58,251 bases of DNA, from the IMG/VR virus record IMGVR_UViG_3300044637_000534, positions 1 to 58,251 of that record, one strand, 5' to 3'. Shown here in pieces: positions 4,037 to 35,200 of this stretch. Positions within the stretch are counted from its first letter, which is position 1. Every line of letters starts with the position of its first letter. The notes beneath the pieces were generated by a model, which worked only from the letters and a program-made list of their open reading frames with translations, was not told where the DNA came from and made no database searches. The translations under genes and the position numbers were made by a program. The DNA is from a virus.

Positions 4037-5089
4037 ATGGCCTCCATCTTCAAAGTCGCGTCAGGCAAGTGGCGCGTGCAGGTCCGTCGCAAGGGCCAGG
4101 CTCCCATCTCGGAGTATTTCACCTCCCACGCCGAAGCCGTCCGCTACGCGCGCGGGCTCGAAGTCGACTTCGATCGGCAGAAGCGCACCCCTGCCGGGGT
4201 GCGTACCACCTTCGCAACCGTGATCGACGCCTACACCAACAGCCTACGCCACAAGGTCGGCACGACCAAAGAGTGGAACCTTCAGATGCTGAAGGACAGG
4301 TTGGGGCATGTGCGGATCGACGAGCTGACCCAGGCGCGGGTGTCCGAGTTCCTCAAGCAGCGCGAGCGCGACGGGGCTGGACCCGTCACGAACATGCAGA
4401 CCTTTTCGTACCTTCGTACCGCACTGCGGTATGGCGGGGCGCACATCGAGGCGGGCGAGGCCATCGCCGAGGCGCTCACCCGGATGCAGCTCCTGTGGGA
4501 CGCGATGATGCACACCAAGCAGATCGCCCACTCCAAGCACCGCGACCGGCGTCCGACGGAGGAGGAGTTGGGCCATTTGATGGACCACTTCGACAGCCGC
4601 CCCCGGTCCAAGATGCCCATGACGGACATCATGCTCTTCGCGATCTGCACCGCGATGCGGCAGGGCGAGATCCTGCGCATCCGGTGGGAGGACTTCGACG
4701 CAGAGAAGCGCTTGATATTGGTCAGGGGGAGAAAAGACCCAACGCAAGCTGGTGGGCGCGACCAGAGCGTGCCCCTCTTGCGCGGTCATGTTCGGGTGGC
4801 CAACAAAGCGCAGGACCCGGTCGAAATCATGCTGCGTCAAATCAGCGCTAGACGCAGGTCAGGAGTTATTTTTCCGCATAGCAAGCCGACGGTCGTTAAC
4901 GCCTGGATACACGCGACCGATACCCTGAGAATAAATGACCTCACCTTCCATGACCTACGTCACGATGGGGTATCGAGGATGTTTGAAGCGGGTTATGATA
5001 TTCCGCAGGTCGCTGCTGTGTCCGGGCACAAAAGCTGGAAGAACCTCCAGCGCTATACAAATTTGCGACCGGAAAAGGTGCAGCGTTGA
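4037..5089 (+). CDS. int: Tyrosine-family site-specific integrase
   Basis: 350 residues, usual length for phage integrases. The N-terminal arm-binding part (1-50, KWRVQVRRKGQAPISEYF) is followed by a core-binding domain (55-160) and a catalytic domain with all expected residues: R208 (TAMRQGE), K233, H305-x-x-R308 (FHDLRHDG), H331 (SGHKSW) and nucleophile Y340 (LQRYTN). It would integrate and help excise the phage genome, making this phage temperate. ATG at 4037 has no strong ribosome site. The following gene encodes an excisionase-like HTH protein, which fits a recombination module. Confidence 0.95.
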   Translation: MASIFKVASGKWRVQVRRKGQAPISEYFTSHAEAVRYARGLEVDFDRQKRTPAGVRTTFATVIDAYTNSLRHKVGTTKEWNLQMLKDRLGHVRIDELTQARVSEFLKQRERDGAGPVTNMQTFSYLRTALRYGGAHIEAGEAIAEALTRMQLLWDAMMHTKQIAHSKHRDRRPTEEELGHLMDHFDSRPRSKMPMTDIMLFAICTAMRQGEILRIRWEDFDAEKRLILVRGRKDPTQAGGRDQSVPLLRGHVRVANKAQDPVEIMLRQISARRRSGVIFPHSKPTVVNAWIHATDTLRINDLTFHDLRHDGVSRMFEAGYDIPQVAAVSGHKSWKNLQRYTNLRPEKVQR

Positions 5090-7592: not shown

Positions 7593-9650
7593 ATGGCTGA
7601 ACAATTTGTTGGAATGGGCGTCCTCCGGGTGGTGCCCCCGGCTAAACTCGACGCCGCAGTACGAGCGGCAGACGAGGAGCGCGCAGCGCTGCAGGACGCC
7701 TCGCAAGAGCCGGTCATGACCAATCTGGCGGGCTACATCCGCTCCCAGTTCGATATGATGAAGCGCCACCGGAACACGGCATCGGGCTGGACCGACCGTC
7801 TCCTGCGCGCTTTGCGCACGTTCAATGGCGTCTACGACCCGACGCAGCTTGCCGAGATCAAGAAGTTCGGCGGCTCCGAGGTCTACGCCCGCATCATCGC
7901 GATGAAGTGCCGGGGAGCGTCCTCGCTCCTGCGTGACGTCTATCTCGCGCCCGAGCGCCCGTGGGGCCTCGACCCCTCGCCTGATCCCGAGATCCCCGAG
8001 ACCGTGATGCAGTCCATCATGCAGCTCGTCGACATCGAGACGGCGACCCTGACGGAAGGTGGCGCTCCGATTGATCCGACCGCCATCCGCGACCGCACCA
8101 GCCAGCTCGTCGAGGCGGCACGCCAGGCAGCGAAGAAACGCGCTGAACGCCGCACCAAGATCTCCGAGGACAAGATCGACGAGATCCTCATCGAGGGTAA
8201 TTTCTACAAGGCGCTGGCCGAGTTCATCACCGACCTGCCGCTCTTCCCCTTCGCCGTCATGAAGGGTCCCTACGTCAAGATCGTTCCGACCGTGCGCTGG
8301 GAAAACGGTCAGCCGACCGTGATGCAGAGCCCGCGCCTCATGTGGTCGCGCATCTCACCCTTCGACATCTGGTTCACGCCCGGCGTCAGCGACATCGAGG
8401 ACGCTGCCGTCATCGAGCGCTCGCGCCTGACGCGCGCCGACCTCAACGACCTGCTCGACCTGCCTGGCTACAACCAGGAAGCGATCCGCAGCGCGCTGCG
8501 CGATTACGGCCAGACGGGGCTCAACGAGGACTACGACGCCGCCACCGACAGCGAGCGGGCGTGGAACGAGAGCCGCGAAAGCCCCTTCATGAACGAGAGC
8601 CATCTGATCTCGTGCCTGGAGTATCACGGCAACGTCCAGGGGCAGATGCTCCTCGACTACGGCATGGATGAAGAGCAGGTCCCGGACCCCGAGCGCGACT
8701 ACTTCGTGCAGTGCTGGCTCGTCGGCCAGTACGTCATCAAGGTCCAGATGTCGCCGAGCCCGCGCAAGCGGCATCCGTATTTCGTGACGTCGTTCGAGAA
8801 GGTACCCGGCACGGTGGTCGGCAACGGCCTGCCCGACATCCTCAACGACATCCAGGACGTCTGCAACGCCTCGCTGCGTGCGCTCGTCAACAACCTCTCC
8901 ATCTCGTCCGGCCCGCAGGTCGTGGTCAACGACGACCGCCTGTCGCCCGACGAGGACGGCGAGGAGCTCTATCCGTGGAAGCGCTGGCACGTCCAGACGG
9001 ACCCGATGGGCAACAACGGGGCTCCGCCGATCAGCTTCTTCCAGCCCAACTCGAACGCTTCGGAGCTGCTCGGTGTCTACCAGAAGTTCTCAGAAATCGC
9101 CGACGAGATCTCGGCAATCCCGCGTTACCTCTCTGGCGCGGGTGCTGCTGGAGCGGGGCGCACTGCCTCCGGTCTGGCGATGCTTATGGGTAACGCCAGC
9201 AAGGTTCTCCAGACCGTTGCAGCGAACATCGACCGGGACATCCTCGATCCGCTTTTGAGGCAGCTCCTGGACATGATCCTGCTGACGGACGAGACCGGGA
9301 TGCTGTCCGGCGACGAGACCGTCAAGGTCATGGGCGTGTCGGTCGCGGTCCAGAAAGAGACGCAGCGTTCCCGCCAGCTCGAGTTCCTGCAGATCACGGC
9401 CAACCCGATCGACAGCCAGATCGTCGGTCCCAAGGGTCGCGCCGCACTGCTTCGCGCGGTCTCCGAAACGCTCGGCCTGCCCGGCTCCAACATCGTCCCG
9501 TCCGAGGACGACATGGACAAGCAGATGCAGGCCGCTCAGATGCAGGCCATGGCCGCAGCAGGCGGTCAGGCGCAGGGCGGTCAGGCTCCGCAAGGCGGCA
9601 ACGTCACGCAGGACATGGGTCCGCGCACCTCCATCGCAGGAGGTCCGTGA
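7593..9650 (+). CDS. Portal (head-tail connector) protein
   Basis: 685 residues, the size of podovirus/P22-class portals. Visible portal-like parts: helical N-terminus (YIRSQFDMMKRHRNTASGW), long central wing with the membrane-portal signature style of LMWSRISPFDIWFTPG, a crown segment SGAGAAGAGRTASGLAMLMGNAS near 520, and a Gln/Met/Gly-rich C-terminal tail. It forms the dodecameric vertex through which DNA passes. ATG 7593 has a weak ribosome site; ATG 7716 (MTNLAGYIRS) is an alternative start and would trim 41 residues. First gene of the rightward late operon. Confidence 0.9.
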   Translation: MAEQFVGMGVLRVVPPAKLDAAVRAADEERAALQDASQEPVMTNLAGYIRSQFDMMKRHRNTASGWTDRLLRALRTFNGVYDPTQLAEIKKFGGSEVYARIIAMKCRGASSLLRDVYLAPERPWGLDPSPDPEIPETVMQSIMQLVDIETATLTEGGAPIDPTAIRDRTSQLVEAARQAAKKRAERRTKISEDKIDEILIEGNFYKALAEFITDLPLFPFAVMKGPYVKIVPTVRWENGQPTVMQSPRLMWSRISPFDIWFTPGVSDIEDAAVIERSRLTRADLNDLLDLPGYNQEAIRSALRDYGQTGLNEDYDAATDSERAWNESRESPFMNESHLISCLEYHGNVQGQMLLDYGMDEEQVPDPERDYFVQCWLVGQYVIKVQMSPSPRKRHPYFVTSFEKVPGTVVGNGLPDILNDIQDVCNASLRALVNNLSISSGPQVVVNDDRLSPDEDGEELYPWKRWHVQTDPMGNNGAPPISFFQPNSNASELLGVYQKFSEIADEISAIPRYLSGAGAAGAGRTASGLAMLMGNASKVLQTVAANIDRDILDPLLRQLLDMILLTDETGMLSGDETVKVMGVSVAVQKETQRSRQLEFLQITANPIDSQIVGPKGRAALLRAVSETLGLPGSNIVPSEDDMDKQMQAAQMQAMAAAGGQAQGGQAPQGGNVTQDMGPRTSIAGGP

Positions 9651-10225
9651 TGGCCTTCAACCCCTTCGCCGGACCCAAACGCCCCGACGCACCGAGCTAC
9701 GACGCGGCCTACCAGGAAGCCTCGCGCCAGACAGCGGCCAACGCTGCTGCCTGGCGTCCGCAGAAGGTCAGCCCGCAGGACATGAAGGCCCAGCTCGCCC
9801 AGAAGCTCGCCGCCTGGCGGGCTCAGCCGGTGGGTGCAGGTGGTCGTCGCGCGCTCCCGGTCGGAACGCCCCAGGTGCCCTATCAGCGGGTCAACCCGCA
9901 GGACGTCTACAATCAGCGGATGACTGCATACCAGCAGCAGCTCGCTGACTGGCAGAGGCAGCAGGAAGAATGGCAGCGCCAGCAGCGCGAGTACTTCCAG
10001 CAACAGAACATCGATTACGGCGGCGGTAGTGGCGGCGACGGCGGCTCCAATTTCGGAGGCGGTGGCGACAGCAGCGCTGGCGGGTCTCCCGCAGGCGACG
10101 GCGGCGGTGCGATGGGTGGGGCCATGTCGCGCGGCGGCAAGGTTCAGAGGTTCAGCAAAGGTGGCATGGTCAGCGACAGCTTCTCGAAGATGTCGCGCCA
10201 TTTCGCGAAGAAAGGGTCCATGTAA
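9650..10225 (+). CDS. Gln/Gly-rich late protein next to portal
   Basis: ATG at 9650 overlaps the portal stop (TGATG), with AGGAGGT upstream. N-terminal Pro/Ala part (NPFAGPKRPDAPSYDAAYQE), a Gln/Trp-rich helix around 100-120 (DWQRQQEEWQRQQREYFQQQ), a polyglycine stretch, and a basic C-terminus with two GG motifs (SRGGKV and RFSKGGMV). Low-complexity composition suggests a flexible head or connector accessory protein. The GG motif recurs in neighbours. Function unknown. Confidence 0.65.
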   Translation: MAFNPFAGPKRPDAPSYDAAYQEASRQTAANAAAWRPQKVSPQDMKAQLAQKLAAWRAQPVGAGGRRALPVGTPQVPYQRVNPQDVYNQRMTAYQQQLADWQRQQEEWQRQQREYFQQQNIDYGGGSGGDGGSNFGGGGDSSAGGSPAGDGGGAMGGAMSRGGKVQRFSKGGMVSDSFSKMSRHFAKKGSM

Positions 10226-10587
10226 TGAATAAATTCTACAAGGGTAAGCCAGCGAAACTGGTCGCCGTGCATCATTTCAATGGTGGCGGCGCGGTCCGTC
10301 GTTCAGAGAACGTCGAACAGGCTATCGCTGAGCGGAAGTACCGCGACACTGTCCGCGATGTCGTAGACGCGAAATCCGCACCGGCCAAAACGACAGACGA
10401 CATGCGTATCAACGACGCACTCGCCGACCGCGCCAGCCGCCGTCGCGATGCTGAGTTCACTAATCGCAATAAGTCGTCTGCCCGCACGGGGTACGATTAT
10501 TCGTATCAGGCTCAGGACAAAGAGCCCAAGACCACCGCGTCCCAGCGTCTCAAGAACTCGCCGGTCAACATCGGTGAGGACGACTGA
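10225..10587 (+). CDS. Hypothetical basic late protein, 120 residues
   Basis: Starts in a TAATG overlap with the previous gene and ends overlapping the next. Begins MNKFYKGKPAKLVAVHHFNGGGAVRR, so it carries the short F-x-x-GG-x-V motif near residue 20. The remainder is highly charged and probably disordered (ADRASRRRDAEFTNRNKSSAR). Part of a row of small accessory genes between portal and scaffold; likely a head protein, without recognised family. Confidence 0.6.
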   Translation: MNKFYKGKPAKLVAVHHFNGGGAVRRSENVEQAIAERKYRDTVRDVVDAKSAPAKTTDDMRINDALADRASRRRDAEFTNRNKSSARTGYDYSYQAQDKEPKTTASQRLKNSPVNIGEDD

Positions 10588-10802
10588 TGCGTGCACCGAA
10601 GGTATCGACCAAGTCACCGCGCCTTAAAGCCGTCGCAGGTGGCGAGGTGCCGATCCAGAAAATCGGACAGTTGAGAGGCAAGGGCATGAACGCAGGTGGT
10701 TCGCCCAACGACCTCAAGAAGCTGTTTCCCAAAGGTTCCCGCTTTGCTCCGAAGTTTTCGAAGGGCGGGAAAGTGAGCAAGCGCGATCGCGGTTGCAAAT
10801 AA
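10587..10802 (+). CDS. Hypothetical basic late protein, 71 residues
   Basis: ATG at 10587 immediately after the previous stop, with GGTGAGGACGAC upstream. Lys/Gly/Pro-rich and positively charged, ending KFSKGGKVSKRDRGCK with the shared FSKGGKV motif. No fold predicted by eye. Probably a head-associated small protein. Confidence 0.55.
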   Translation: MRAPKVSTKSPRLKAVAGGEVPIQKIGQLRGKGMNAGGSPNDLKKLFPKGSRFAPKFSKGGKVSKRDRGCK

Positions 10803-10825
10803 CCTGGCCAGGTAAGGAGTGATCC

Positions 10826-11029
10826 ATGAAGTCAAAGGCTGAGAAGACCGGCATGTCCGGTTTCGAGTTCGCCAAAGGCGGCCCGAGCGGTATGCACAAG
10901 TTCACCCCGTCGAAGACGCAGGAGCCCGGTCAGACCGGCCCGGCTGGCACCGACACGGGTGAGTTTGCCAAAGGCGGCAAGCGTCTGGGCGACATCCAGC
11001 GTCCGTCGATGACCCAGAAGTCTGCGTGA
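10826..11029 (+). CDS. Hypothetical late protein with two FAKGG motifs, 67 residues
   Basis: ATG at 10826 preceded by AAGGAG. Contains FEFAKGGPSG near residue 15 and GEFAKGGKRLG near 48, two copies of the short motif shared by neighbouring small genes. Lys/Gly/Thr-rich and likely unstructured. Function unknown. Confidence 0.55.
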   Translation: MKSKAEKTGMSGFEFAKGGPSGMHKFTPSKTQEPGQTGPAGTDTGEFAKGGKRLGDIQRPSMTQKSA

Positions 11030-11036
11030 GGCTTCC

Positions 11037-11231
11037 ATGAAGCCTGACGCAAAGAAGCCTGCCAAGGAGATCAAGGCGGAAATGCTTCCGTCTCGGTTCT
11101 CTCGCACAGATGTTACGGGCGACGTCTCTTACGCCCGTATCAACAACAATTACGCGAAGAAGCCTCCGGCTGATCCTGTCCTCGACACGACGGCACAGAA
11201 CTATTTCCGCGTAATGATCGGTGGCCGATGA
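11037..11231 (+). CDS. Hypothetical basic late protein, 64 residues
   Basis: Begins MKPDAKKPAKEIKAEMLPSR, then SYARINNNYAKKPPADPVLD. The stop overlaps the ATG of the next gene (ATGA). Basic and Pro/Lys-rich at the start, with a more ordered C-terminus (TTAQNYFRVMIGG). Belongs to the small-gene run before the scaffold. Function unknown. Confidence 0.55.
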   Translation: MKPDAKKPAKEIKAEMLPSRFSRTDVTGDVSYARINNNYAKKPPADPVLDTTAQNYFRVMIGGR

Positions 11232-13925: not shown

Positions 13926-14555
13926 ATGGCCAGCATCGACATGAACCGCCTCATGGACAACGCCAGGATCAAACTTCCTGGCGCGCTGGACGGCGTTCTC
14001 CAGATGGAGATGGTCAACGTCCTCAACGAATTCTTCAACGGCTCGAACCTCTGGTACGAGGACATCCCGTTCCAGGTCACGCCGACGTCCGACAGCTACC
14101 TCGAGAACCCGGCTGCGTGGACCTACACGATTGTGCCGTCGCAAGGTCAGATCAACCGCCTGATGTGGGTGATGACCTCCGAAAGCCTGCCCGTCCCGGT
14201 CGGGATGCCGATCCCCGGCGAGCTCATCCTCGGACGCCAGCCTAGCCAGGCCGACACCTATACCGCCCGCGTTGCACTCGTCCTGGGCGACCAGACGACC
14301 CGCGAGGGCTACCCGGATTTCCCCGACTGGATCTTGAGCAAGTACTACCCGGACCTGCTCGACGGCGTCCTCGGCGCGATGATGGGTCAGCTCGCGAAAC
14401 CCTATTCAAACCCACAGCTCGCACAGTTCCATCTGCGTCGTTTCCGCAGTGCGATCAGTACAGCGAAGGTTGAAGCTCAGCATGAGAATGTGTATCGTGG
14501 CCAAAGCTGGAGGTTTCCCCAGAACTTTGTCCGCAGAAGGTTTAGATATTTCTGA
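13926..14555 (+). CDS. Tail-tube/connector-type protein
   Basis: 209 residues. An early helical segment (MNRLMDNARIKLPGALDGVLQMEMVNVLNEFFNGSNLW) precedes a beta-rich middle (DIPFQVTPTSDSYLENPAAW) and a helical C-terminus with PDWILSKYYPDLLDGVLG. Size, gene order after the adaptor, and style resemble the T7 gp11-like gatekeeper protein that sits under the portal. The C-terminal residues are basic and aromatic. No strong motif, so the call rests on context. Confidence 0.6.
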   Translation: MASIDMNRLMDNARIKLPGALDGVLQMEMVNVLNEFFNGSNLWYEDIPFQVTPTSDSYLENPAAWTYTIVPSQGQINRLMWVMTSESLPVPVGMPIPGELILGRQPSQADTYTARVALVLGDQTTREGYPDFPDWILSKYYPDLLDGVLGAMMGQLAKPYSNPQLAQFHLRRFRSAISTAKVEAQHENVYRGQSWRFPQNFVRRRFRYF

Positions 14556-14556
14556 C

Positions 14557-14573
14557 GTTACCTTCTGGTAACA
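14557..14573. repeat. GTTACC/GGTAAC palindrome in late spacer
   Basis: GTTACC-TTCT-GGTAAC (with flanking bases) between the connector and the next gene; a shorter-spaced variant of the dispersed palindrome and the only clear one in a late intergenic spacer. Confidence 0.5.
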
Positions 14574-14590
14574 AGTAGAAGGGGCTCGAG

Positions 14591-15013
14591 ATGGCCAGTT
14601 ATAACAAGTTCCAGGTGTTCACGAAGAACCTGATTGACGGAGCGCACGACTTCGATGCGCACACGTTCAAGATCATGCTGACGAACACTGCGCCGGTAAA
14701 CACGAACTCGATCAAGGCGGACATCACCGAGATCAGCGCGGGCAACGGCTACACGGCTGGCGGCACGGCCACCTCGATCACGACCTCGACGGCCACGGGC
14801 ACGGCGAAGGTGGTGGGCACCGACGTGGTGTTCACGGCGACGGGGGGCACCATCGGACCCTTCCGCTACGCGGTGTTCTACAACGACACGCAGTCGAGCC
14901 CGGCCAAGCCGCTCATCTCCTGGTGGGACTACGGCTCCTCGATCACGCTCAACGACACCGAAACGCTGACCGTCGACTTCGACGCGGTCAACGGCATCTT
15001 CACGATCGCGTAA
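14591..15013 (+). CDS. Phage structural/decoration-type protein, 140 residues
   Basis: Starts MASYNKFQVFTKNLIDGAHDF with GAAGGGG upstream. All-beta composition rich in Thr/Gly/Ala (GYTAGGTATSITTSTATGTA), and a PFRYAVFYNDT segment that I recall from many phage structural proteins. Likely a surface-exposed head or tail component. No catalytic residues. Placement before the fibre cassettes fits a tail or decoration protein. Confidence 0.6.
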   Translation: MASYNKFQVFTKNLIDGAHDFDAHTFKIMLTNTAPVNTNSIKADITEISAGNGYTAGGTATSITTSTATGTAKVVGTDVVFTATGGTIGPFRYAVFYNDTQSSPAKPLISWWDYGSSITLNDTETLTVDFDAVNGIFTIA

Positions 15014-15026
15014 GGGCTGAAACCGG

Positions 15027-16520
15027 ATGGTTCTGTCGGTCAAACACACCTTCACATCGCCGAAGGCTGACGGTACTGACAGTACCCTCATCCAGCCTTC
15101 CAACTGGAACGCCGAGCACACGATCACGCTCGCTGCGGGCAAGATCCTTGGGCGCGACAGCTCGGGCTCCGGCGCGGTTCAGGAGCTCTCGCTCTCGTTC
15201 GACCCGACGCAGCAGTCGATGATCCCGCCCACGGGCACGACCGCCCAGCGTCCGGCGACGGCGGCTGCGGGTATGCTGCGCTACAACACGGACCTCGCCA
15301 AGGTCGAACTCTACAACGGCACGAGCTGGGGCTCGGTCGGCGGCGGTGCGGCGATCTCGGACACCGGTCCTGCGAACCCCCAGCCGGGTGATTTGTGGTG
15401 GAAGTCCGACGAGGGCCAGCTCTACGTTTATTACAACGACGGAACGTCGTCCCAGTGGGTCATCGCCAACGCCTTCATGGGCGGCACGGCGTTCGGCGAC
15501 ATTACGGTCACCTCGATCAACGCGGGTCCGCTTGCTGGCACGCGCAATCGCATCATCAACGGTGCGATGGAGATCGACCAGCGCAACAACGGCGCAGCGG
15601 TCGCAAACTCTGGCAGTTATACAGTTGATCGTTGGGCGGACAGCTATATTGGTTCAGGGCGCTATACGGCGCAACGCTCCACCGTTGCACCAACCGGGTT
15701 CACGAACAGCCTCCTCCATACGGTCTCAACGGCGGTTTCGCCTGCCGCAACCGATGTGTATCAGATCCTTCAGGCTATTGAGGCGGTGAATATCGCTGAT
15801 TTCGCTTGGGGTGGTTCGGCGGCAAAAACTGTCACGCTGTCGTTTTGGGTACGGTCGAGCGTAGCCGGGTCGTATAGCTTGAAGCTTTCGAATGGGCCAA
15901 CGATCAATCGTAGCTATGTTACGACCTACACGATCAATGCGGCCAACACCTGGGAATACAAGACCGTGACGATCCCCGGTGACACATCTGGGACGTGGGT
16001 GAGTGACAACACGGCTGGACTATTCCTCTGTTTCGATCTTGGCTGTGGGTCGAATTTCAACACTGGCTCGCTTAATACGTGGCAAGCCGGTAATTTTTAT
16101 CGCGCCGCAGGCACGGTGAACCTCATCTCCAACAACGGTGCCACGTTCTACGTGACGGGCGTCCAGCTTGAGGTGGGTTCGCAGGCCACTCCGTTCGAGC
16201 GCCGGAACTATCAGCAGGAACTGGCGATGTGCCAGCGGTATTACTGGCGGGTGTCGCATCCGTTCTTCAGCTCGAACTACGCTCCGTATACCACAAATGC
16301 TCAGCTCAGCGAGGTTATTGCGTGCCCTGTAGATATGCGCGCAACACCGACGACTTCGATTAACACCACAGGCATGAACATATCGGGGATTGGTTCGCCG
16401 GGTAGCAGTGCAATGTCGCGTCGATCCATCAAAATTGGCGCAGTGTCGACGACTGCCACCACCAATGCATACTTCACATCGGTGTCCGGCAACTTCTTTG
16501 ATGCAAGTGCGGAGCTCTGA
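15027..16520 (+). CDS. Tail fibre/receptor-binding protein, cassette 1
   Basis: 497 residues. The N-terminus (MVLSVKHTFTSPKADGTDST, NWNAEHTI) is a typical fibre attachment start; a GDLWWKSDEGQLYVYYNDG segment near 130 resembles a small sugar-binding motif. From about 175 the common fibre module RNRIINGAMEIDQRNNG ... YTVDRW begins, followed by a beta-sandwich (VTLSFWVRSS) and PFERRNYQQELAMCQRYYW, then a variable tip ending SAEL. It binds the host surface. The small gene at 16522 follows by one base. Two paralogues follow downstream. Confidence 0.85.
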   Translation: MVLSVKHTFTSPKADGTDSTLIQPSNWNAEHTITLAAGKILGRDSSGSGAVQELSLSFDPTQQSMIPPTGTTAQRPATAAAGMLRYNTDLAKVELYNGTSWGSVGGGAAISDTGPANPQPGDLWWKSDEGQLYVYYNDGTSSQWVIANAFMGGTAFGDITVTSINAGPLAGTRNRIINGAMEIDQRNNGAAVANSGSYTVDRWADSYIGSGRYTAQRSTVAPTGFTNSLLHTVSTAVSPAATDVYQILQAIEAVNIADFAWGGSAAKTVTLSFWVRSSVAGSYSLKLSNGPTINRSYVTTYTINAANTWEYKTVTIPGDTSGTWVSDNTAGLFLCFDLGCGSNFNTGSLNTWQAGNFYRAAGTVNLISNNGATFYVTGVQLEVGSQATPFERRNYQQELAMCQRYYWRVSHPFFSSNYAPYTTNAQLSEVIACPVDMRATPTTSINTTGMNISGIGSPGSSAMSRRSIKIGAVSTTATTNAYFTSVSGNFFDASAEL

Positions 16521-16521
16521 T

Positions 16522-16707
16522 ATGGCGCAATATACTAACGCGCAGTGGATCGACCTTGGCGAGCAGCACATCGGTATCCGCGTCGACATCGATGGCGTCC
16601 CATCGACGGTACCGCTCGACCCCGCGAACTCCGATTACGCAGCGATCATGAAACTCGTTGGCGAGGGCAAACTCGTCATCGCCCCCGCTACTGCGGAGAC
16701 TGAATAA
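16522..16707 (+). CDS. Small fibre-partner protein 1 (61 residues)
   Basis: Follows the first fibre gene directly. MAQYTNAQWIDLGEQHIGIRV then VPLDPANSDYAAIMKLVGEGKLVI is shared with the small genes at 18122 and 19185. The repeated one-fibre-one-partner order suggests a cognate assembly chaperone or fibre-tip subunit, though no Tfa-type family is proven. Ends in an ATGG overlap with fibre 2. Confidence 0.7.
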   Translation: MAQYTNAQWIDLGEQHIGIRVDIDGVPSTVPLDPANSDYAAIMKLVGEGKLVIAPATAETE

Positions 16708-18119
16708 TGGCGATCAACTTCCCGTCCTCCCCGACGACCGGACAGTCCTACACTGACACTACGACAGGTCAGACCTGGATCTATAACGGCACCGGCTGGG
16801 CATCGAGCTACAACCGTTCCTCCGTTGTGCGCCAGCAGTTCACCGCGAGCGCAGGTCAGACGACTTTCACGGTCTCGGGCGGCTACGCTCCGGGCCTCCT
16901 CGACGTGTACCAGAACGGCGTGAAGCTGGTCTCGGGCTCCGATTACTCCGCGAGTAACGGCACCACGGTGATCCTCACCGTTGGAGCGTCGGCGGGTGAC
17001 AGCGTTGAAGTGTGGGGCCTCGCGCTCTTCACGGTGGCCAACATGCCCACCCTGGCGCAGCTCTATGCTGAGACGGGTGACGCTGGCCCCATCTCCATGC
17101 GCAACCGCATCATCAACGGCGACATGCGCATCGACCAGCGCAACAACGGTGCAAGCGCCAACAATGGTGCGGGTGGCCTGTACACGCTGGATCGTTGGTC
17201 TACATTTGGCTCGCAGGCGTCAAAGTTTTCGATCCAGCAGAACGCGGGTTCAGTCACTGGCCCGGTGGGGTTTCAAAACTATCTTGGGATAACATCTACG
17301 TCCGCATATAGCGTTGGCGCGTCCGAAAGTTTTTCTGTCCGCCAATATATTGAGGGCTACAATACAGCCGACCTTAACTTCGGGACTGCCAACGCGGTAA
17401 CGGTTACCTTGTCGTTCTGGGTGCGCTCATCCTTGACCGGTAGTTTCGGTGGCTCCTTGTACAACAGCGCGGGCAATCGCTTTTATCCGTTCACATACAC
17501 AATCAATAATGCGAATACGTGGGAGCTGAAATCCATTGTCATTCCGGGTGACGTTACCGGAACATGGGTTGGCGCGACCAACGGTATTGGCCTTGCCGTC
17601 CAGTGGTCCTTGGGAGCAGGTTCTTCTGTCAGCGGAACGGCTGGCGCTTGGGCCTCTTCAACCGCTTTGCAGCCTTCAGGATCAACCTCCGTTGTCGGCA
17701 CCAACGGTGCGACCTTCTACCTGACCGGTGTGCAGCTTGAAATGGGTGGCACGGCGACGGCGTTTGAGCGCCGCAACTACCAGCAAGAATTGGCTATGTG
17801 CCAGCGGTATTATGCTAAAACATACAATACAGAGACAACTCCCGGAACCGCTACCACTACAGGCTATATAATCACCACTACAAATGCCAGTGGGTGGGCT
17901 TATGTAACGTGGAACATTGCTGTTGCAATGCGGGCGTCTCCCACTATTACCGCATATAACCATTCTACCGGCGCAACTGGAACATGGCAGGACGGTGGGG
18001 GAACAGCTAGAGCTGTTACTGTGGTTGGAGCAGGCTCTTCAAACGTGTCTTTTGGCTCTACCGCTTCGAACCTAAATAGTTGGTTGGCCGGTCATGCCAT
18101 AGCAAGCGCGGAGCTATAA
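16707..18119 (+). CDS. Tail fibre/receptor-binding protein, cassette 2
   Basis: 470 residues. Different N-terminus (MAINFPSSPTTGQSYTDTTT, GQTWIYNGTGW, FTASAGQTTFTVSGGY), then the same core module as fibre 1: RNRIINGDMRIDQRNNG ... YTLDRW, VTLSFWVRSSLTG, FERRNYQQELAMCQRYY, and an ASAEL end. The tip after the core is Thr/Gly-rich and unique. A palindrome copy at 16942-16958 encodes DYSASN. Probably one of several fibres giving a broad or switchable host range. Confidence 0.85.
   Translation: MAINFPSSPTTGQSYTDTTTGQTWIYNGTGWASSYNRSSVVRQQFTASAGQTTFTVSGGYAPGLLDVYQNGVKLVSGSDYSASNGTTVILTVGASAGDSVEVWGLALFTVANMPTLAQLYAETGDAGPISMRNRIINGDMRIDQRNNGASANNGAGGLYTLDRWSTFGSQASKFSIQQNAGSVTGPVGFQNYLGITSTSAYSVGASESFSVRQYIEGYNTADLNFGTANAVTVTLSFWVRSSLTGSFGGSLYNSAGNRFYPFTYTINNANTWELKSIVIPGDVTGTWVGATNGIGLAVQWSLGAGSSVSGTAGAWASSTALQPSGSTSVVGTNGATFYLTGVQLEMGGTATAFERRNYQQELAMCQRYYAKTYNTETTPGTATTTGYIITTTNASGWAYVTWNIAVAMRASPTITAYNHSTGATGTWQDGGGTARAVTVVGAGSSNVSFGSTASNLNSWLAGHAIASAEL
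16942..16958. repeat. Dispersed palindrome inside fibre 2
   Basis: ATTACT-CCGCG-AGTAAC, read as DYSASN. The same peptide from the same palindrome type occurs in the giant protein at 35853-35869. Confidence 0.65.
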
Positions 18120-18121
18120 CC

Positions 18122-18298
18122 ATGTATTCAAACGCCCAATGGATTGACGAAAACGGTCAGCACACTTGCATCCGCGTTGACATCAACGGCGTGACGAGCT
18201 TCGTCCCGCTCGACCCCAACAACACCGATTACCAAAACATCATGACACTGGTCGACGAGGGCAAGCTCGTGATCCAGCCCGCCGATGGAGTTGAATGA
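18122..18298 (+). CDS. Small fibre-partner protein 2 (58 residues)
   Basis: Two bases after the fibre 2 stop. MYSNAQWIDENGQHTCIRVD, then FVPLDPNNTDYQNIMTLVDE and GKLVIQPADGVE. Clear paralogue of the 61- and 57-residue partners. The core LVxEGKLVIxPA is near invariant across the three, implying a common binding role. Confidence 0.7.
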   Translation: MYSNAQWIDENGQHTCIRVDINGVTSFVPLDPNNTDYQNIMTLVDEGKLVIQPADGVE

Positions 18299-19182
18299 TG
18301 ACGAAGGCGAATGACCTCGCGGCGCTACCGAACAACACGCTCGCGTTCCGCAATCGCATCATCAACGGCGCGATGGCGGTCGATCAGCGTAACGGTGGCG
18401 CTGCTGTCAGTACTGGCGGTGGTGTGATCTACTGCGTCGATCGCTGGTATACGGGCTCGAACGGCGCTGCGACGACAATTCAGCGTGTCCAAGGTGCGAC
18501 GGCAAACCAATTCCGGCTCCAGGTCACTGGCGCTGCTGGCGTTACCAGCGTCTCGATCGCCCAGCGCATAGAGGCGCTCAACAGCGCCGATCTGGCGGGT
18601 AAGACCGTAACTCTATCGTTTGATGCGGCGAACACTCTGCTCACGACGATGACGTGGTCTGCGTCATACGCCAACAGCTACGACAACTTTGCAGCGGCAA
18701 CATCAATCACGTCCGGTAGTGTGGCTGTATCAAGTACAGTCACTCGCTTCTCTGTGACCTTCGCGGTCCCTGCCGCGGCGGTGAACGGTCTGCTGATCGC
18801 GTTCAGTCTTGGTGCTCAGACGAGCGGAACCATCCTTCTGGGCGACGTCCAGCTCGAGCTCGGGCCGGTTGCTACGCTTTTCGAGCGCAGGCCGTATCCG
18901 GTGGAGCTGGCTCTATGCCAGCGTTATTTTGCTGCGTCTGCCTTCACTGAGTACCATTTCAATGGCGCTCCAGGTGCGACTTATGTGAGCACATACAGGA
19001 TCAACATGCCCGTTCAGATGCGGGCCAATCCGTCGATCAGTGTCAACTATTCGGCGAGCAACGCGATTGCTGCGTATGGTTGGTATACTAATAATCTGAA
19101 CTTCTCAGTGCATTACATCAGCGCGTCGACATCAACAAACGCCTATATGTATTTCACCTGGACGACGAACGCGGAGCTTTGA
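18295..19182 (+). CDS. Tail fibre/receptor-binding protein, cassette 3 (short)
   Basis: 295 residues, overlapping the previous gene by 4 bases (ATGATG start). It lacks the long N-terminal attachment region of fibres 1 and 2 and starts almost directly with the core RNRIINGAMAVDQRNGGAAV ... YCVDRWYTG, then VTLSFDAAN, FERRPYPVELALCQRYF and an NAEL end. Because it has no clear attachment part, it may bind through the other fibres. Confidence 0.8.
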   Translation: MMTKANDLAALPNNTLAFRNRIINGAMAVDQRNGGAAVSTGGGVIYCVDRWYTGSNGAATTIQRVQGATANQFRLQVTGAAGVTSVSIAQRIEALNSADLAGKTVTLSFDAANTLLTTMTWSASYANSYDNFAAATSITSGSVAVSSTVTRFSVTFAVPAAAVNGLLIAFSLGAQTSGTILLGDVQLELGPVATLFERRPYPVELALCQRYFAASAFTEYHFNGAPGATYVSTYRINMPVQMRANPSISVNYSASNAIAAYGWYTNNLNFSVHYISASTSTNAYMYFTWTTNAEL

Positions 19183-19184
19183 TC

Positions 19185-19358
19185 GTGTACACGAACGCAA
19201 AATACTGCAAGCCGCCGTTCATGGATGAAGTGAACGGCATTCAGGTCGACATCGACGGCGTCTCGACGTTCGTTCCGCTCGACCCCCAGAACGTCGACTA
19301 CCGGAACATCATGACACTGGTGGACGAAGGAAAGCTGGTGATCCAGCCCGCCGAATAA
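19185..19358 (+). CDS. Small fibre-partner protein 3 (57 residues)
   Basis: GTG start at 19185, two bases after the fibre 3 stop, with GGAG eight bases upstream. MYTNAKYCKPPFMDEVNGIQ, FVPLDPQNVDYRNIMTLVDE and GKLVIQPAE make it the third paralogue. The N-terminal half is the most divergent part of the family, as expected if it recognises a specific fibre. Confidence 0.65.
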   Translation: MYTNAKYCKPPFMDEVNGIQVDIDGVSTFVPLDPQNVDYRNIMTLVDEGKLVIQPAE

Positions 19359-19374
19359 GCAACGGAGATAAGGT

Positions 19375-20277
19375 GTGAGCGCCTTTGCTTTCGAGCGCAC
19401 CGCGTTCCAGCAGGGCGCTTTCTACACCGGATACGATTACCGCCTCACGGCGGATGCGGGCACGTACTCACTGACGGGTACCGCGATCCCCTTGCGTCGT
19501 GGACGTTCGATCTTCCCGACCGCAGGCTCCTACACCCTCACAGGCTTCAACGCCTCGCTGCGCGCTGACCGCCAGTTCCCGGCGACGGTGGGAGGCTACC
19601 AGGGCCAGTACTCCTACGCGGGCTTCACCGCCCACTTCCTGCGGTCCTACGTCGTCAAGGTCATCAGCGGGATCTACAACGTCTCCGGCCAGGCGGCTCG
19701 GATCGCTGCGACCCGCGAGCTCTATCCCGCCGCTGGAACCTACGTTTACACCGGGCGCCCCGCCGCTGTCCGCGCCGCACGCAAACTCAGCACGGATGCG
19801 GGCTCGTACCTTCAGACCGGGTACTCCGCCTCGATCACGACGACCCGCGCGCTCTATCCGTTCGCTGGCTCCTACGCGGTCGCGGGAAATCCCGCCGCGG
19901 TTACTTCTGCGCGTAACCTCTACCCCGACGCCGGGTCCTACACCTACACAGGCGAGAGCGTCAGCTTCCGTTCGGGCTTCAATCTGTTTGCCGGTGGTGG
20001 AAGCTATGTTTTCACCCCGTCTACGACCTATCTGGTCCACGGTTACTGGATCGATGCCAAGACGGCAGGGAATTATACTGTAACCGGGAACGACGCCCGC
20101 TTGTTTCAGAGCGCGTTCTTCTATAATGATAGTGAATACATATACGTGCCCGACCAGCCGCGCACGATGGCAGTTCTCGCCGAGGAGCGTTACATCTTGG
20201 TACCACCCAAGCCGCAACTCGAAGAATACGCTGAAGATCGGACGGTCGAAGCAGAAGCCAGGATCAGGGTGGCGTGA
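19375..20277 (+). CDS. 22-residue tandem-repeat beta protein
   Basis: 300 residues from GTG 19375 with CGGAGATAAG upstream. Residues 28-240 consist of about ten repeats of roughly 22 residues with pattern GxYxxTGxxAxxxxxRxLyPxA (for example GSYTYTGESVSF, GTYVYTGRPAAV). The spacing and alternation suggest a beta-solenoid or stacked beta-hairpins, as in phage tail spikes. The C-terminus ends in a Pro/Glu-rich tail. Probably an exposed tail or baseplate component; the exact role is unknown. Confidence 0.65.
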   Translation: MSAFAFERTAFQQGAFYTGYDYRLTADAGTYSLTGTAIPLRRGRSIFPTAGSYTLTGFNASLRADRQFPATVGGYQGQYSYAGFTAHFLRSYVVKVISGIYNVSGQAARIAATRELYPAAGTYVYTGRPAAVRAARKLSTDAGSYLQTGYSASITTTRALYPFAGSYAVAGNPAAVTSARNLYPDAGSYTYTGESVSFRSGFNLFAGGGSYVFTPSTTYLVHGYWIDAKTAGNYTVTGNDARLFQSAFFYNDSEYIYVPDQPRTMAVLAEERYILVPPKPQLEEYAEDRTVEAEARIRVA

Positions 20278-25063: not shown

Positions 25064-25310
25064 GCCGAGCTATCCCGGCATCCCTGAGCCGACCCTGTCG
25101 CTCGAGGGCCTCATCAACACCGTGGTCCAACTGAAGATCGCGGTGGAGATGCTCAGCGGTCAGCGCCTTGGCGCATCCTATGGCGCCCCCCGCATCTTCG
25201 TGCAGAAGACGATGCCGACGACCAACGACATCGGCGATTTGTGGATCAACACGGCGCTCAACAACAAGCTGCACTTCTGGGACGGCAGAAACTGGACGCA
25301 GACAACTTAG
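25056..25310 (+). CDS. Small late protein with sugar-binding-like motif
   Basis: GTG start at 25056 overlapping the previous gene by 8 bases. 84 residues: a helical N-terminal half (LSLEGLINTVVQLKIAVEML) and a C-terminal GDLWINTALNNKLHFWDGRNW motif that echoes GDLWWKSDEGQLYVYYNDG in fibre 1. Possibly attaches at the tail tip. Function unknown. Confidence 0.55.
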   Translation: MSEPSYPGIPEPTLSLEGLINTVVQLKIAVEMLSGQRLGASYGAPRIFVQKTMPTTNDIGDLWINTALNNKLHFWDGRNWTQTT

Positions 25311-25750
25311 TGATCGAGTTCAACAACCCCGCTCACCTCGAGACCATTGCGAACGCGGCCAACGTCCTTCCCAACGCCGCCTACGACGCCTGCATTGCCC
25401 ACTACAAAAATGGCAGGTTACTCGGCGGAGTAATCTACCAGAACTATACCGGTGCCAGCATAACCATGCACACAGCCGGTTTCGATCCCCATTGGATCAA
25501 TCGGGATATGCTTTGGGTGTGCTTTCATTACCCGTTCGTGCAACTGAATTGTAACAAACTATTTGGGCAAGTCCCTGCGTGGAACCTCAAAGCACTTGAG
25601 TTTGACCTCCATATAGGGTTTAAAGAAGAGTGTATTATTCGCGACGTCTATCCGCAGGGTGACATGATCCTTCTCTCCATGCGCAAAGAAGACTGTCGCT
25701 GGCTGAAACTCCGGCCTCGCACTATCGCAGCGCCGCAGGAGGACGAGTAA
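25310..25750 (+). CDS. GNAT-like acetyltransferase of late operon
   Basis: 146 residues from GTG 25310, overlapping the previous TAG. VIEFNNPAHLETIANAANVL, then KNGRLLGGVIYQNYTG, WVCFHYPFVQLNCNKLFG and a final YPQGDMILLSMRKEDCRWL resemble phage GNAT-type proteins found before ejection proteins in podoviruses. The acetyl-CoA loop (R/QxxGxG/A) is not obvious, so activity is uncertain. A palindrome variant at 25417-25434 lies inside. Confidence 0.6.
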   Translation: MIEFNNPAHLETIANAANVLPNAAYDACIAHYKNGRLLGGVIYQNYTGASITMHTAGFDPHWINRDMLWVCFHYPFVQLNCNKLFGQVPAWNLKALEFDLHIGFKEECIIRDVYPQGDMILLSMRKEDCRWLKLRPRTIAAPQEDE

Positions 25751-29215: not shown

Positions 29216-32200
29216 ATGGCGGACACCCCCGTCTTCCAGTCGATCTCCAACGAAGAACTCAAGCGTGCGTTGGAGAACGGGTTTGATATTGGCGGTACCC
29301 TGGTCGATGACCCGGTTACTCGCGAAGGTTACAGCGAGCTCACGCCCGAAGACTATGAGACGAGCTGGAGCGATTATGGTCGCACGCTTGCCGCCAATAC
29401 TATCGGTATTGGTTCAAGCCTCGCCAGGCTGTCCCAGTATGCGACTGACGGAGCCATAGGCGGCGACACGGCTCAATACCTCGAAGGGCTTTCCGAAGAC
29501 CAGGTGCGGGCCATGTCGCCCGTTGCTCGTCGTGCGCTTGGCGCTGCGTTCCTTCCTTCAGACGGGGAAGAGAGCGTCCTCGACGCGGGCATTGGCCGTT
29601 CGCTGGCGCTGAAGACGACGGCTGCGGTTCCGTCGCTTGTGGCTTCGATCATCCCCGCTGGTATTGCCACGACGCTTCTGCGTGGTGCGAGCGTCGGCGT
29701 CCGCGCCGGGGTCGGTGCTGGTGCGGCACGCGGCACGGCTGGCACGCTGGCTGCTGGTGAGGTGGTCGGTCAGATCTATAAGAAGATCGACGAGTTCTCC
29801 GACGAAGAGCTGGCCAAGCAGAGCGACGTCTTTGCAGGCTACCTGACCATGATGAGCCCCGATGAGGCTCGCGCTAAATACATGCGCGATGTGGCGGGTG
29901 TCGCTCCCATCGTTGCCGGTGCGATCTCTGCGGCGTTGGGCGGCGTCGAAGGTAAGATCGGTCGTCGTCTCGGTGGAGAAGCCGCAGAGGGCTTCCTCAA
30001 AGGCGTCGGCAAGGGGTCAATCGCCGAAGCGCTGCAGGAAGGCGCTGAGACCGGGGTTGGCGAACTTCTCTCGCAGAGCGCTCTATCCACCGCTGGCCTC
30101 GATGACATGAGCTGGACCAAGATCCTGTCTCAGACCATCGAAGGTATGACTGTCGGCGGCATCCTTGGCGGCGGTGCCGGTGGCATCTCCAATATCGGCG
30201 GTCGCACTCGCACCGCAACCGAAGGGAAGATCCCGGAAACTGACGCGGGTCCGCTCGATCCGACCACGAAGTTTGCGCTCGACCAGGAGACGCAAACGCA
30301 ACAAACGCAACAGACGCAACCGCCTGCTCCTCTCACTGGTATGGGTGGCGTTAAGTTCTCTGACGCTCCTCCACCAATGACCCCAGACGGTCAGGTCGTC
30401 GAGCCTTTGTTACAGGAGAAGGCACCCCTTCGACCTGGTATGCCGACTACGGAAGAACTCGTCGTCCGGCAGTTCAATGAGAACCTCACGAGCGGAATTA
30501 ACGAACAAGGCACAGCTCCTGCACAAAAAAAGGCTGGTTACTGGTCTGGCGAGCTCGAGAAGCTCCTTAGCAATGCCGGTGTCCAACTTAATGAGCAGGA
30601 TCGTTCCTCACTCAACCAGCGCGTGGTTGATGTCCTCAACCGCACGAAAGACACCGCACAGCGTTGGGCTGGTCTGCGTCAGATCGTCGACGAGCTGAAG
30701 GCTCAGAAGGCTTCAGCTCCCGCCGCAGCGCCGCAGCAGACGCCCGACCAGGCAGCGATGCAGGCGGGGATCGAAACGCTCGATGGGTCGAATTCGGTGC
30801 CCGAGCGTCCGGCCACGCTGCAGGTGCAGGTCAAGATGCTCACGAACGGTGAGCGCCAGGCCGTGTACATCCCGTTCACGGTGCCGGAGGCCGAGCGCCC
30901 GAAGAAGCCCAAGGGCATCGAGAAGGTCTTCGTCAAGAACGGCATCGTCTATTACAACCCGGCACGCTTGAAGCCCGCCTACATCCGTAAGGCGGACGCC
31001 GCCGATCGTCTGAACGACATCCTGCCGATGGGTGCCACGCCGCAGTTCGAAGCGGTGAAGGCCGTCAAGGAACGCGGCGCTGAGCCTCGCGTCGTGCAGG
31101 CCATCAAGGATGGCATCTCTGTCCTCGACGTCGCCTCGTCGACCGAAACAGTTGTACAGGATGCTGCACAGGTTGCGGCCCAGGCTCCCGCCGATGCCGA
31201 GATCGTCGTTCGCGATGACCCGGAAGGCGTGATCCAGGAGCGCATCGAAGGTCGCCAGCAGGATCTTGCCGAGATCGTCGTCACGCCCGAGCTGCGTGCG
31301 AAGTGGGAAGAGCTTGGCACCCGCACTCTCCCGGACGGTCGCCGTGTCCTGCCCAATCTGAGCGACGAAGGTATCATCGCTGCGGAGAGGCAGCAGCTCG
31401 CGGACCAGGAACGTCAGGCCCAGGTCGAGCGTCAGCGTCAGGAACGCGAAGAGCGTAAGGCCAAGGCGGCAGAGGCTGCGGCCAAAGCCGAGGAGAAGGC
31501 CAAGCCGGTCCTCGAGGTCAAGGACGCCAAGGAGAGCAAGAAGAGCAAGGCCAAGGTCGCCAAGAAGAAGGACGACCTCACAAAGGCCAAGGAGATCTTC
31601 GAGGCGAACAAGCCGACCGCAGCAGAAGACAAGGCCGGGCTCGCTGCCAAGCGGGCCATGGTCATCGCGCGCGTCCGCAAGATGTTGGACGAGGCGAAGA
31701 AGGCGAAGATCCAGATCCCCGGCCAGTGGCAAGCTGGCGTGCCGGAGCATCTCGGCTTCTTCCTGCTCATGAAGAAATTCGCGCAGCGTGCCGACAAGGG
31801 CAAGATCGACGACGCAGCCGTTCAGCTCTTCCTGGCCGACGAGTTCTTCGCTCGCATCGGCGAGTGGGAGAGCATCAAGAGCACGCGCCGTGTGGAAGGC
31901 GATGCCCAGTCCAAGGGCAAGGACTTTCAGGAAGCCACTGGCTACGACGCCGACACGAAAGAGCGTTCCGAGATCAACATCGACCGCATCGCCGAGACGA
32001 CCGGCGAGACGGAAGACGAGCGCGTCGGTCGCGTCTCGCTCGACAACGAAGAAGAGAACCTCAACCCGACTGAGGCGTTTGAGGGCTTTGTCGATGAGGA
32101 AGCGGTTACTGAGGAAGTAACACCCGCTGCTCCGGTCGAAGAGAAGATCGAGGACAAGCTCGCCGCACGTCGTGCCGAGGGTACGTTCACGAAGACCGAG

Positions 32201-35200
32201 GAAGCCCCGGCCAAGAAGGTCGTTGTCGAGAAGAGGCGTAAGATTGATCTCAGCAAGATCAAGCTCGGCAGGAAGCTCGCGCCTACGAAGGCCGAAGACC
32301 TTCCGCAGGCGGACCCGCCGGAAGCCCCTGTCAAGCGCATCCGCACTGAGCGTGAGGCTTTTGAAGCGGGCTACGCCAGCGCCATTGACGCGATGCGGGC
32401 GAACCCCGACCTCAAGAAGAGCGTCGAGTATGCCGAGTGGCTGAAGTCGCTGACTGACGAGCAGTGGGCGAAGATCGAAAACGTATTTTCCCCCAATGAA
32501 AACCCGTTCCTCGCGACCGGCGATTTCGCGTCAGAGATCGGACGCGCCAGGCTCGAAGCTGTGCTCAACGAGAACACTGAGCAGCCTGCACCGAAACAGC
32601 CCGAGCCGTTCCAGTCTATGGTTCAGCGGGTCGACGTAAACGGCAGTACATACTTCAACCTTGGCAATCCGAAGAACGGGGGCTTCCAATTTTGGCTGGG
32701 TGCGCGCCAGTTTGTCCTGCGGTACAAGGGTAAAGAGTATTCGATCAACACTTGGGATCGACGGCAGGGCAGCTACGTCCTTGACCAGATCGACCAAACC
32801 CCATTGCCGGTAGAGATGCATCAGCTCGCTCGCGATTGGGTCAATGAAAAGATCCCAAGCAACGATGCGTTCGAGGCACGGCTGAAGGAAGCCGAGCGCG
32901 AGATGATCGACAATTATCTCGCGAAAAATCCAGAAGCTGCGATGGCTCAGAACACCGAGCAGCCCATCCGCGAAGCGCAGATGCCGGGCCAGCAGGAGTT
33001 CTCGAGCCTCGCCGAGGTCGTGAGCGCAAACCCGGATCAGCTTGAGACGATCCGCGAGCTCGCGCTCGAGGACGATCTTCTCGTGTCGCGTGATGGCCAG
33101 GAGATTGTGCCGAGCGCGGTGGGCACCGTGAACGACTTCTTCGCCCGCACGATCTCCGACGAGAAGATCACCAACCCGCTCATGCGCCAGCTCCTGCCGT
33201 TCATGCGGCGCGAACTGAAGCGCCTGATCGGCGACATGAAAGTGCTCGTGGTGAGCCCCGAGCAAATGCGCCAGCTCACCAACAAACCAAACACGGGCGG
33301 CTTCTACACCCGCTACGGCACGTCGGACGTGATCGTCATCCGCGAGGACGCTCTCGCTCGCCCCGAGGTCATGACCTACCTCATGACGCATGAGGGTCTG
33401 CACGGCGCTACCGCTCGCGGGCTCGACAGCAACCCCGAGTTCTTCAGCACGATCAAGTCGATCGCCGACGAGGTGCGGGCTCGTATGCCGGAAGTCGCCG
33501 GGATGTACGGCTTCACGGATCAGCACGAGTTCGTCGCTGAGCTCGCGAACCCTGAGTTCGTCGATGTACTCTCGAAAGTAACCGTCTCCCCTGAGCTCGC
33601 TCGCAAGCTGGGCCTCAAGGACTGGCAGGATCGCACGCTGTGGCAGACGGTGGTCGACGCCGTTCGCAAACTCCTCAAGCTCCCCGCTGACAGGTTCACA
33701 GCGTTGGATGCTTTGATGCGCACGACGGCTCAGGCCATGGAGGCGCAGACGACGCTGCCGGAGAGCTTCCGCACTCTGCCGCGTGGCTCGTTCCCGAACT
33801 TCGCTTCGATGGATGTGGCTCGTCAGGCGGCGCAGGCGATCAAGGACACGGCTCCGGGATCGATCGGCAAGCGCCGTGCGCTGCTCGCCAGCTCGACGCT
33901 CGACCAGATCCGCCAGTGGTATCGCGGCATGTTCGTGAACCAGAAGGGCGAGGACGTCCTCGAGAAGCTCGTCTCCAACATCCAGCGCATCCGTCCGTTC
34001 GCGGACGACAAGCGCGAGCGCGGTGAGCAACTCGCCCAGCGCTTCATGGACTTCGCCAGCAAGAACCGTGCGGCGGCAAACGAGTTCGCGGACATCGCCA
34101 ACTCGGTGACGCTGCTCAACGCCAACCTCTTCGGCGAGAACAAACACTGGGGCGAGAACCGTCGCGATAGCTGGCAGGCACGCGCCATGCTGCCGGACCT
34201 GCAGCGCCGGTTCGCCGCTCTCGAGAAGGCCAACCCCGAAGCGCGCAAGCTCTACGAGGACATGGTCGCCTATTACCGCGACACGCAGAACGAGATCACG
34301 CGCCAGCTCGTCGACAACATCCTCGCCGAGCACGATGCGGACCTGTCCGATGCCGATCGTCAGAGCCTTACTACGAAAGTAATGCAGGGCTCGCTCGACG
34401 AGGCGGCAGAGAAGCTCGTCAACAACTCGACGATCTTCAACGCGCTCAAGGATGCTCGCCAGCTCCGCCTGATCGAGGGGGACTATTTCCCGCTCATGCG
34501 TCACGGCGAGTACGTGGTGCAGACGAAGGACAGCGTCGGCGACACGATGGGCGGCAAGGAAGTCGAGCCCGGCGTCGTCGAGTTCACCGGCAGCAAGAAG
34601 TCCGACGTGCTCAAGATGGCCGAAGCCTTCGCGAAGCGCACGACCAAGGGTCAGGGCTTCACACAGGAAGACGGCGTGCCGCTCGTCATGACGGGACCGA
34701 CCGCGGTCGAGATGCCGTCCGACAGCAGCCAGTTCAAGTACCGCGTCAAGGTCCAGCTTGACGGGGTGCATATGTTCGACACCCAGGCGGAGGCTGAGAG
34801 CTTCATTCGCGATCAGAAGGGCAAGTTTGCCCAGATCAGCGAGGCTCCCCTCCTCAAGCGCGATGACGGCAATTTCGGCGAGGGGTTCTCGAACTCCTCC
34901 CTTGCCGCCATCGCCAAATCCATCAGTGCGCGAGACGGCATCCCCCAGGGTCAGAAGGAGATGATGCTCACGGCGCTGAAACAGGCGGCGGTGCGCCACA
35001 TGGCTGGCAACCGCGTGCAGAAGCGTTCACTGCCTCGTCGCGGCTTCGTCGGCGCGTCTTCCGACCTCGCGCGCAACACGCTCGTCTATGCGGAAGCGTC
35101 GACCCGTTACTGGGGCAAGCTGCGCTACATGCCGCTGGTGCGTGAAGCGTTCACAGAGATGCAGAAGATCGTGGACGCCGCCAAATACTCGAAGAACGAG

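Follow-up and report, generated by a model that had tools for sequence, protein, structure and literature searches.

The stretch of viral DNA analysed here (an IMG/VR record of 58,251 nucleotides, hereafter the window) contains an array of three tail fibre genes, each of which is probably co-translated with its own minimal fibre-assembly chaperone, a small partner protein that would bind and chaperone the fibre encoded directly upstream. An earlier reading based on the letters of the DNA alone (the sequence-only reading) had described three consecutive fibre-plus-partner cassettes; all six ORFs were found on the + strand where it had placed them, the motifs it quoted for fibres and partners were correct, and each fibre gene is indeed followed, 1–2 nt past its stop codon (gaps of 1, 2 and 2 nt for cassettes 1, 2 and 3), by a paralogue of 57–61 aa (Table 1). 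In addition to what had been described, all three fibres end in (S/N)AEL, and the GCGGAG found there is the Shine-Dalgarno sequence of the partner gene. Since the partner stop codons overlap the starts of the next fibre genes (TAATG at 16705–16709 and ATGA at 18295–18298), the six genes form one tightly packed run; promoter and terminator scans between the cassettes returned nothing above chance.

Table 1. Coordinates of the fibre and partner genes and of their parts within the window.
Feature	Position	Strand	Details
Fibre 1	15027..16520	+	497 aa ORF; phrog_4492 tail fiber protein, E 4e-57
Fibre 1 adaptor	15027..15542
Fibre 1 CBM4-like core	15543..16243
Fibre 1 variable tip	16244..16517		end ASAEL
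Fibre 1 dual-use end	16509..16517	+	GCG GAG CTC, Ala-Glu-Leu plus Shine-Dalgarno (GGAG) of partner 1
Partner 1	16522..16707	+	61 aa, ATG 16522; member of alignments A2/A5
Block replaced in sibling L312	16244..16575	+	fibre 1 tip plus first half of partner 1; blastn, identity profile
Fibre 2	16707..18119	+	470 aa; phrog_4492, E 6e-56
Fibre 2 adaptor	16707..17099
Fibre 2 CBM4-like core	17100..17812
Fibre 2 tip	17813..18116		end ASAEL
Fibre 2 dual-use end	18108..18116	+	GCG GAG CTA
Partner 2	18122..18298	+	58 aa, ATG 18122; AlphaFold2 model
Fibre 3	18295..19182	+	295 aa; phrog_4492, E 3e-52; AlphaFold2 model
Fibre 3 N-terminus			18 residues
Fibre 3 CBM4-like core	18349..18927
Fibre 3 tip	18928..19179		end TNAEL
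Fibre 3 dual-use end	19171..19179	+	GCG GAG CTT
Partner 3	19185..19358	+	57 aa from GTG 19185; alternative TTG 19179 gives 59 aa

The cassettes are flanked by head genes on one side and lysis genes on the other in the window, which bears portal/connector, capsid, internal virion protein, endolysin and integrase genes. The integrase match (4037–5089; phrog_1, E 4e-46) suggests that the virus may be a temperate phage or the remnant of one. Directly 3′ of the cassettes (19375–20277) lies a gene for a 300-aa protein with about seven degenerate repeats (R.L...AGSY..TG..A......). This protein matched nothing in Pfam or PHROG and may be a further component of the tail or fibre. Elsewhere in the window, a run of short ORFs between the portal and capsid genes (9647–11231) shows a recurring (K/R)-F-(S/A)-K-G-G-like motif, an N-acyltransferase gene (25241–25750; phrog_4470, E 3e-40) lies amid the internal virion protein genes, and a 2560-aa protein (29216–36898) resembles phrog_37402 and DarB-like antirestriction proteins in its C-terminal half.

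All three window fibres matched the C-terminal part of the phrog_4492 (tail fibre) profile. When residues 18–190 of an AlphaFold2 model of fibre 3 (41 sequences, mean pLDDT 80) were compared with known structures, they aligned with the CBM4 module 2y6j (Z 17.1, rmsd 2.1, 154 residues), and the core aligned with CBA120 tailspike 4 (5w6h; Z 15.1, 20% identity). The fibre core is thereby predicted to be, in fold only, a CBM4-like jelly roll of the carbohydrate-binding type (CBM4/CBM16/CBM22 type); the RNRIING..DQRN..DRW and QLE.G..T.FERR motifs lie within it. Some CBM-bearing tailspikes (CBA120 TSP4, K2-2 TSP, Kp7 gp52) have a similar jelly roll, but in the window fibres it is followed by a further variable tip, which extends roughly 80–100 residues past the CQRY block and differs greatly from one fibre to another. 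The window fibres showed no enzymatic beta-helix, and PDB sequence searches with the fibre profile returned nothing useful. The three adaptors differ from each other and fibre 3 is almost devoid of one; a common attachment for all three fibres is therefore improbable. The GC3 of the adaptors (0.82–0.89) contrasts with that of core plus tip (0.59–0.66) and of the neighbouring structural genes (0.72–0.92), falling within fibre 1 from 0.84 in the adaptor to 0.66 in the core and 0.59 in the tip; this drop suggests that the fibre heads were imported.

The three window partners gave no significant match in Pfam, PHROG or the PDB, and PDB sequence searches with the partner profile yielded nothing useful. 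PF02413 (Tfa / Caudo_TAP) matched no window partner and no member of alignment A2, while the positive control, Mu U, was matched at 7e-37; PF16778 (Phage_tail_APC) was likewise absent from the window partners and the A2 members. The AlphaFold2 model of partner 2 (83 sequences, mean pLDDT 94) has three beta strands and one helix and ends after that helix and a short strand; the C-terminal helical trimerisation domain of Tfa-type chaperones is not present in the partners. A fold search with this 58-residue model (Foldseek, VIA) gave no informative match, returning only chemokine-like topologies with Z below 5. Partner frames are intact across ∼90 loci, with 9 invariant columns, and in relatives the aligned start is MYxNA. 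An entropy profile showed residues 8–18 to be hypervariable and the second half to be nearly fixed, the variable segment lying on a hairpin loop of the confident partner 2 model.

The affiliation of the partners came from longer homologues. In a fibre-driven sample, more distant fibres were followed by relatives of the type IPFDPANTDYQEYLKWLAEGNTP, some of them longer. Those of loci L096 and L122 matched PF16778 above cut-off (E 2e-14 and 8e-14, respectively) as well as tail fiber assembly PHROGs, two of which (phrog_105 and phrog_188) also match Mu Tfa. A superfamily profile built from both partner subfamilies matched the N-terminal domain of the L122, L096, L133, L087, S-2L and Luutsna-3 proteins at E 3e-7 to 3e-15 (Z=100000; no shuffled control fell below E 10); the window-type profile alone reached only L087 (E 5e-5) and L133 (E 5e-4). 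The N-domain of Mu Tfa had no detectable sequence similarity to the window partners, and the two-domain protein of Luutsna-3 matched PF16778 below threshold (E 0.027). Since the partner domain recurs as the N-terminal half of Phage_tail_APC / tail fiber assembly proteins, the window partner appears to be a Tfa-type chaperone reduced to its fibre-binding domain. The suggestion of chaperones made in the sequence-only reading is borne out as far as homology goes, which points to fibre-assembly chaperones. L096, L122 and two cultured phages, the Pseudomonas putida phage vB_PpuP-Luutsna-3 and the cyanophage S-2L (the fibres of both of which end in AEL), have the same fibre C-terminus (EL) and N-terminal partner domain as the window, but their proteins retain a C-terminal domain (PF16778 in L096 and L122) that the window partners lack. 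In Luutsna-3 (L392, 954–3372) the fibre gene is annotated as ‘tail fiber assembly’ and the candidate chaperone gene behind it as ‘hypothetical protein’, likely a misannotation.

The fibre end is conserved well beyond the window. The last two fibre residues were Glu-Leu in 136 of 144 non-redundant relatives, in 77 of 108 cases GGAG occurred within the last fibre codons, shortly before the partner start, and the gap between fibre and partner was mostly 2–3 nt. In AEL-ending cassettes the terminal alanine was encoded by GCG in 93% of cases, compared with 25% for alanines elsewhere in the same fibres, a bias that yields the GCGGAG ribosome-binding site. The terminal leucine is nevertheless specified by all of six codons and the terminal glutamate by two, which indicates that Glu-Leu is held at the protein level too. 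Selection would thus appear, from these codon patterns, to act both on partner translation and on the amino-acid sequence at the fibre end. The possibility that EL is a mere by-product of the ribosome-binding site was rejected on account of this codon variety and because fibres without a partner retain EL.

Fibre and partner are tightly linked in relatives, and their pairing is no coincidence. Of 332 partner-profile matches in relatives that were located via the partner, 320 lay immediately after a fibre of the same family, and several of the remaining 12 were truncated fibre ends, second tandem partners or fragments; in the first sample, a fibre was directly upstream of the partner in all 88 loci with upstream DNA. 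In the fibre-driven sample, which is independent, the profile detected a partner immediately downstream of 70 of 97 fibres, and most of the remaining fibres were followed by a divergent one. A search of 347 fibre and 338 partner ORFs found no fibre–partner fusion. Several relatives (L116, L117, L162, L114 and L148) also have arrays of two or three cassettes, so the multi-cassette array is not unique to the window. The pairing is, however, looser than the strict one-to-one cognate pairing proposed in the sequence-only reading: physical and evolutionary coupling holds, with the variable half of the partner following the fibre tip, but re-assorted pairs and partnerless fibres occur. The tips of L015 and L071 are identical in DNA while their partners differ, and L258/L220 and L020/L046 combine near-identical tips with clearly different partners. 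The fibre of L112 and the first fibres of L126 and L122 end in EL but have no partner of their own, being followed by another fibre or by no partner, so that the partner may serve in trans. In L011 (4764–5174; same contig as L272), one fibre is followed by two different tandem partners, the first with a divergent N-terminal half. The genome scan gave a single match in a cellular assembly, a Chloroflexota MAG contig with the same fibre–partner pair (L391, 5018–6171); the contig probably belongs to a phage and was binned with the MAG, and the match does not identify a host for the phage.

That cassettes are exchanged among relatives, as the sequence-only reading had proposed checking, was apparent in sibling phages. 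In a sibling contig (L312, the contig of L033) whose capsid protein is 100% identical to that of the window, the fibre 1 adaptor was conserved (0.97 identity), the CBM core had diverged, and both the tip and the first half of partner 1 were wholly different; the second half of that partner, like the fibre 2 adaptor, was again ∼90–100% identical in DNA. Blastn aligned window positions 14401–16243 and 16576–17153, with nothing alignable between them. The same pattern was seen in L315 (capsid 95% identical), with boundaries at 16242 and 16612. The exchange breakpoints fall in conserved DNA, at the CQRY block of the fibre and the DxxGV..VPLDP block of the partner. A permutation test on 115 non-redundant cassettes, with domains split on the basis of profiles, gave a matching result: when tips were homologous and cores different, the identity of the partner first halves was 0.66 vs 0.46 in permuted pairs (P = 0.0002), while the second halves were at expectation (P = 0.12). 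When the core was common and the tip was not, the first-half identity was 50% vs 46% permuted. An earlier Mantel test over all cassette pairs had shown no partner–tip correlation (rho 0.03, P = 0.25) because it was dominated by unrelated tips and a loose domain split; restriction to homologous tips, together with the profile-based split, gave a clear signal.

The location of the breakpoints, and the existence of re-assorted pairs, would also agree with the idea that the tip and the partner first half travel as a unit merely because they are neighbours between conserved DNA blocks, the partner being generic and having no specificity for the tip. We consider this possible but doubtful, since a generic partner should not vary in its first half, and yet hypervariability is found precisely in residues 8–18, with the second half nearly fixed.

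With the minimal chaperone as the preferred explanation, the partner would attach to the nascent fibre at its distal end, where the variable first hairpin would touch the fibre tip and the constant second half would meet some constant feature, for which the xAEL end is a plausible candidate. In this way the partner would aid trimeric folding as Mu Tfa and Pam3 gp25 do, but without their helical trimerisation domain, so that the fibre would have to trimerise by itself. An exchange that took tip and half-partner together would retarget the phage while the fit stayed tolerable. Several findings weigh against this explanation: the window partners directly match no chaperone family and, unlike known Tfa-type chaperones, have no C-terminal domain with which to trimerise, the fold search was uninformative, the co-inheritance of tip and half-partner could reflect linkage alone, and the match between the two is not strict.

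Known systems offer several parallels. Tfa / Caudo_TAP proteins (Mu U and U′, lambda Tfa; PF02413) are also encoded directly 3′ of the fibre, are exchanged together with the tip and are expected to act on the fibre distal end; the window partners differ in being only 57–61 aa long, in matching neither PF02413 nor PF16778, and in having no C-terminal helical domain. In Pam3 gp25 (PDB 7YPX), a variable N-terminal beta domain of 55 residues (1–55), the size of a whole window partner, holds the fibre distal end, and a conserved C-terminal helical domain trimerises (PMC9608196). The window partner looks like the first, fibre-binding domain of such a chaperone alone, although gp25 has an additional trimerisation domain of 100 residues, was not matched by the window partners in the PDB search, and serves a fibre of the TNF-like / glycine-rich type rather than a CBM4-like one. 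The Alteromonas phage chaperones V22 gp27 and A5 gp9 are likewise downstream proteins with a hairpin module, common to unrelated phages along with the fibre, and there one fibre needs its chaperone and the other does not (PMC10579305); unlike the window partners, they are described as 195–240 aa proteins with DUF4376. The intramolecular chaperones of T5 Ltf and the K1F tailspike form the C-terminus of the same polypeptide, whereas the window partner is a separate gene product.

Alternatively, the partner might be a structural component of the tip, retained on the virion and contributing to receptor binding in the way reported for gp38 of Salmonella phage S16, with the variable hairpin in the binding surface. 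In favour of this, the variable segment maps to a hairpin loop in a confidently predicted model and tracks the fibre tip, and the Mu and Ur-lambda chaperones are present in mature particles (PMC9608196). This is unlikely, however, given that the two-domain relatives bear an assembly-chaperone domain, that virions lack Pam3 gp25, the nearest structural precedent (PMC9608196), and that one tip occurring with different partners would be odd if both formed one binding site. A variant that we regard as rather improbable is that the specificity unit is split across the gene boundary, tip and partner N-half making up one exchangeable receptor-binding head: the partner would be a virion-resident cap, its variable hairpin on the host and its constant half clamping the Glu-Leu of any fibre. 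That the small ORFs are non-functional, their conservation reflecting only the fibre end and a leader for the next gene, would fit their shortness and their failure to match curated families but is scarcely credible in view of the ∼90 loci with intact frames, the 9 invariant columns, the two-domain homologues and the optimised ribosome-binding sites.

Cassettes of fibre and assembly genes, and their horizontal exchange, have long been known (the annotated Mu G segment; Alteromonas phages, PMC10579305). As far as these searches show, what is new is a single-domain partner family without curated annotation, a dual-coded fibre end, and an exchange boundary that falls within the partner gene. Environmental phages often encode small hypothetical proteins behind their tail fibres, most of them without annotation; hundreds of such loci can now be placed as single-domain relatives of fibre-assembly chaperones, and such cassettes have a signature in the AEL fibre end, the codons of which double as the partner ribosome-binding site. 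The partner family also raises the question of how a chaperone works without a trimerisation domain. The natural exchange unit mapped here, a fibre tip plus half of the partner gene, indicates where working fibre exchanges are cut, and swaps of this unit are how such viruses seem to re-aim at new hosts.
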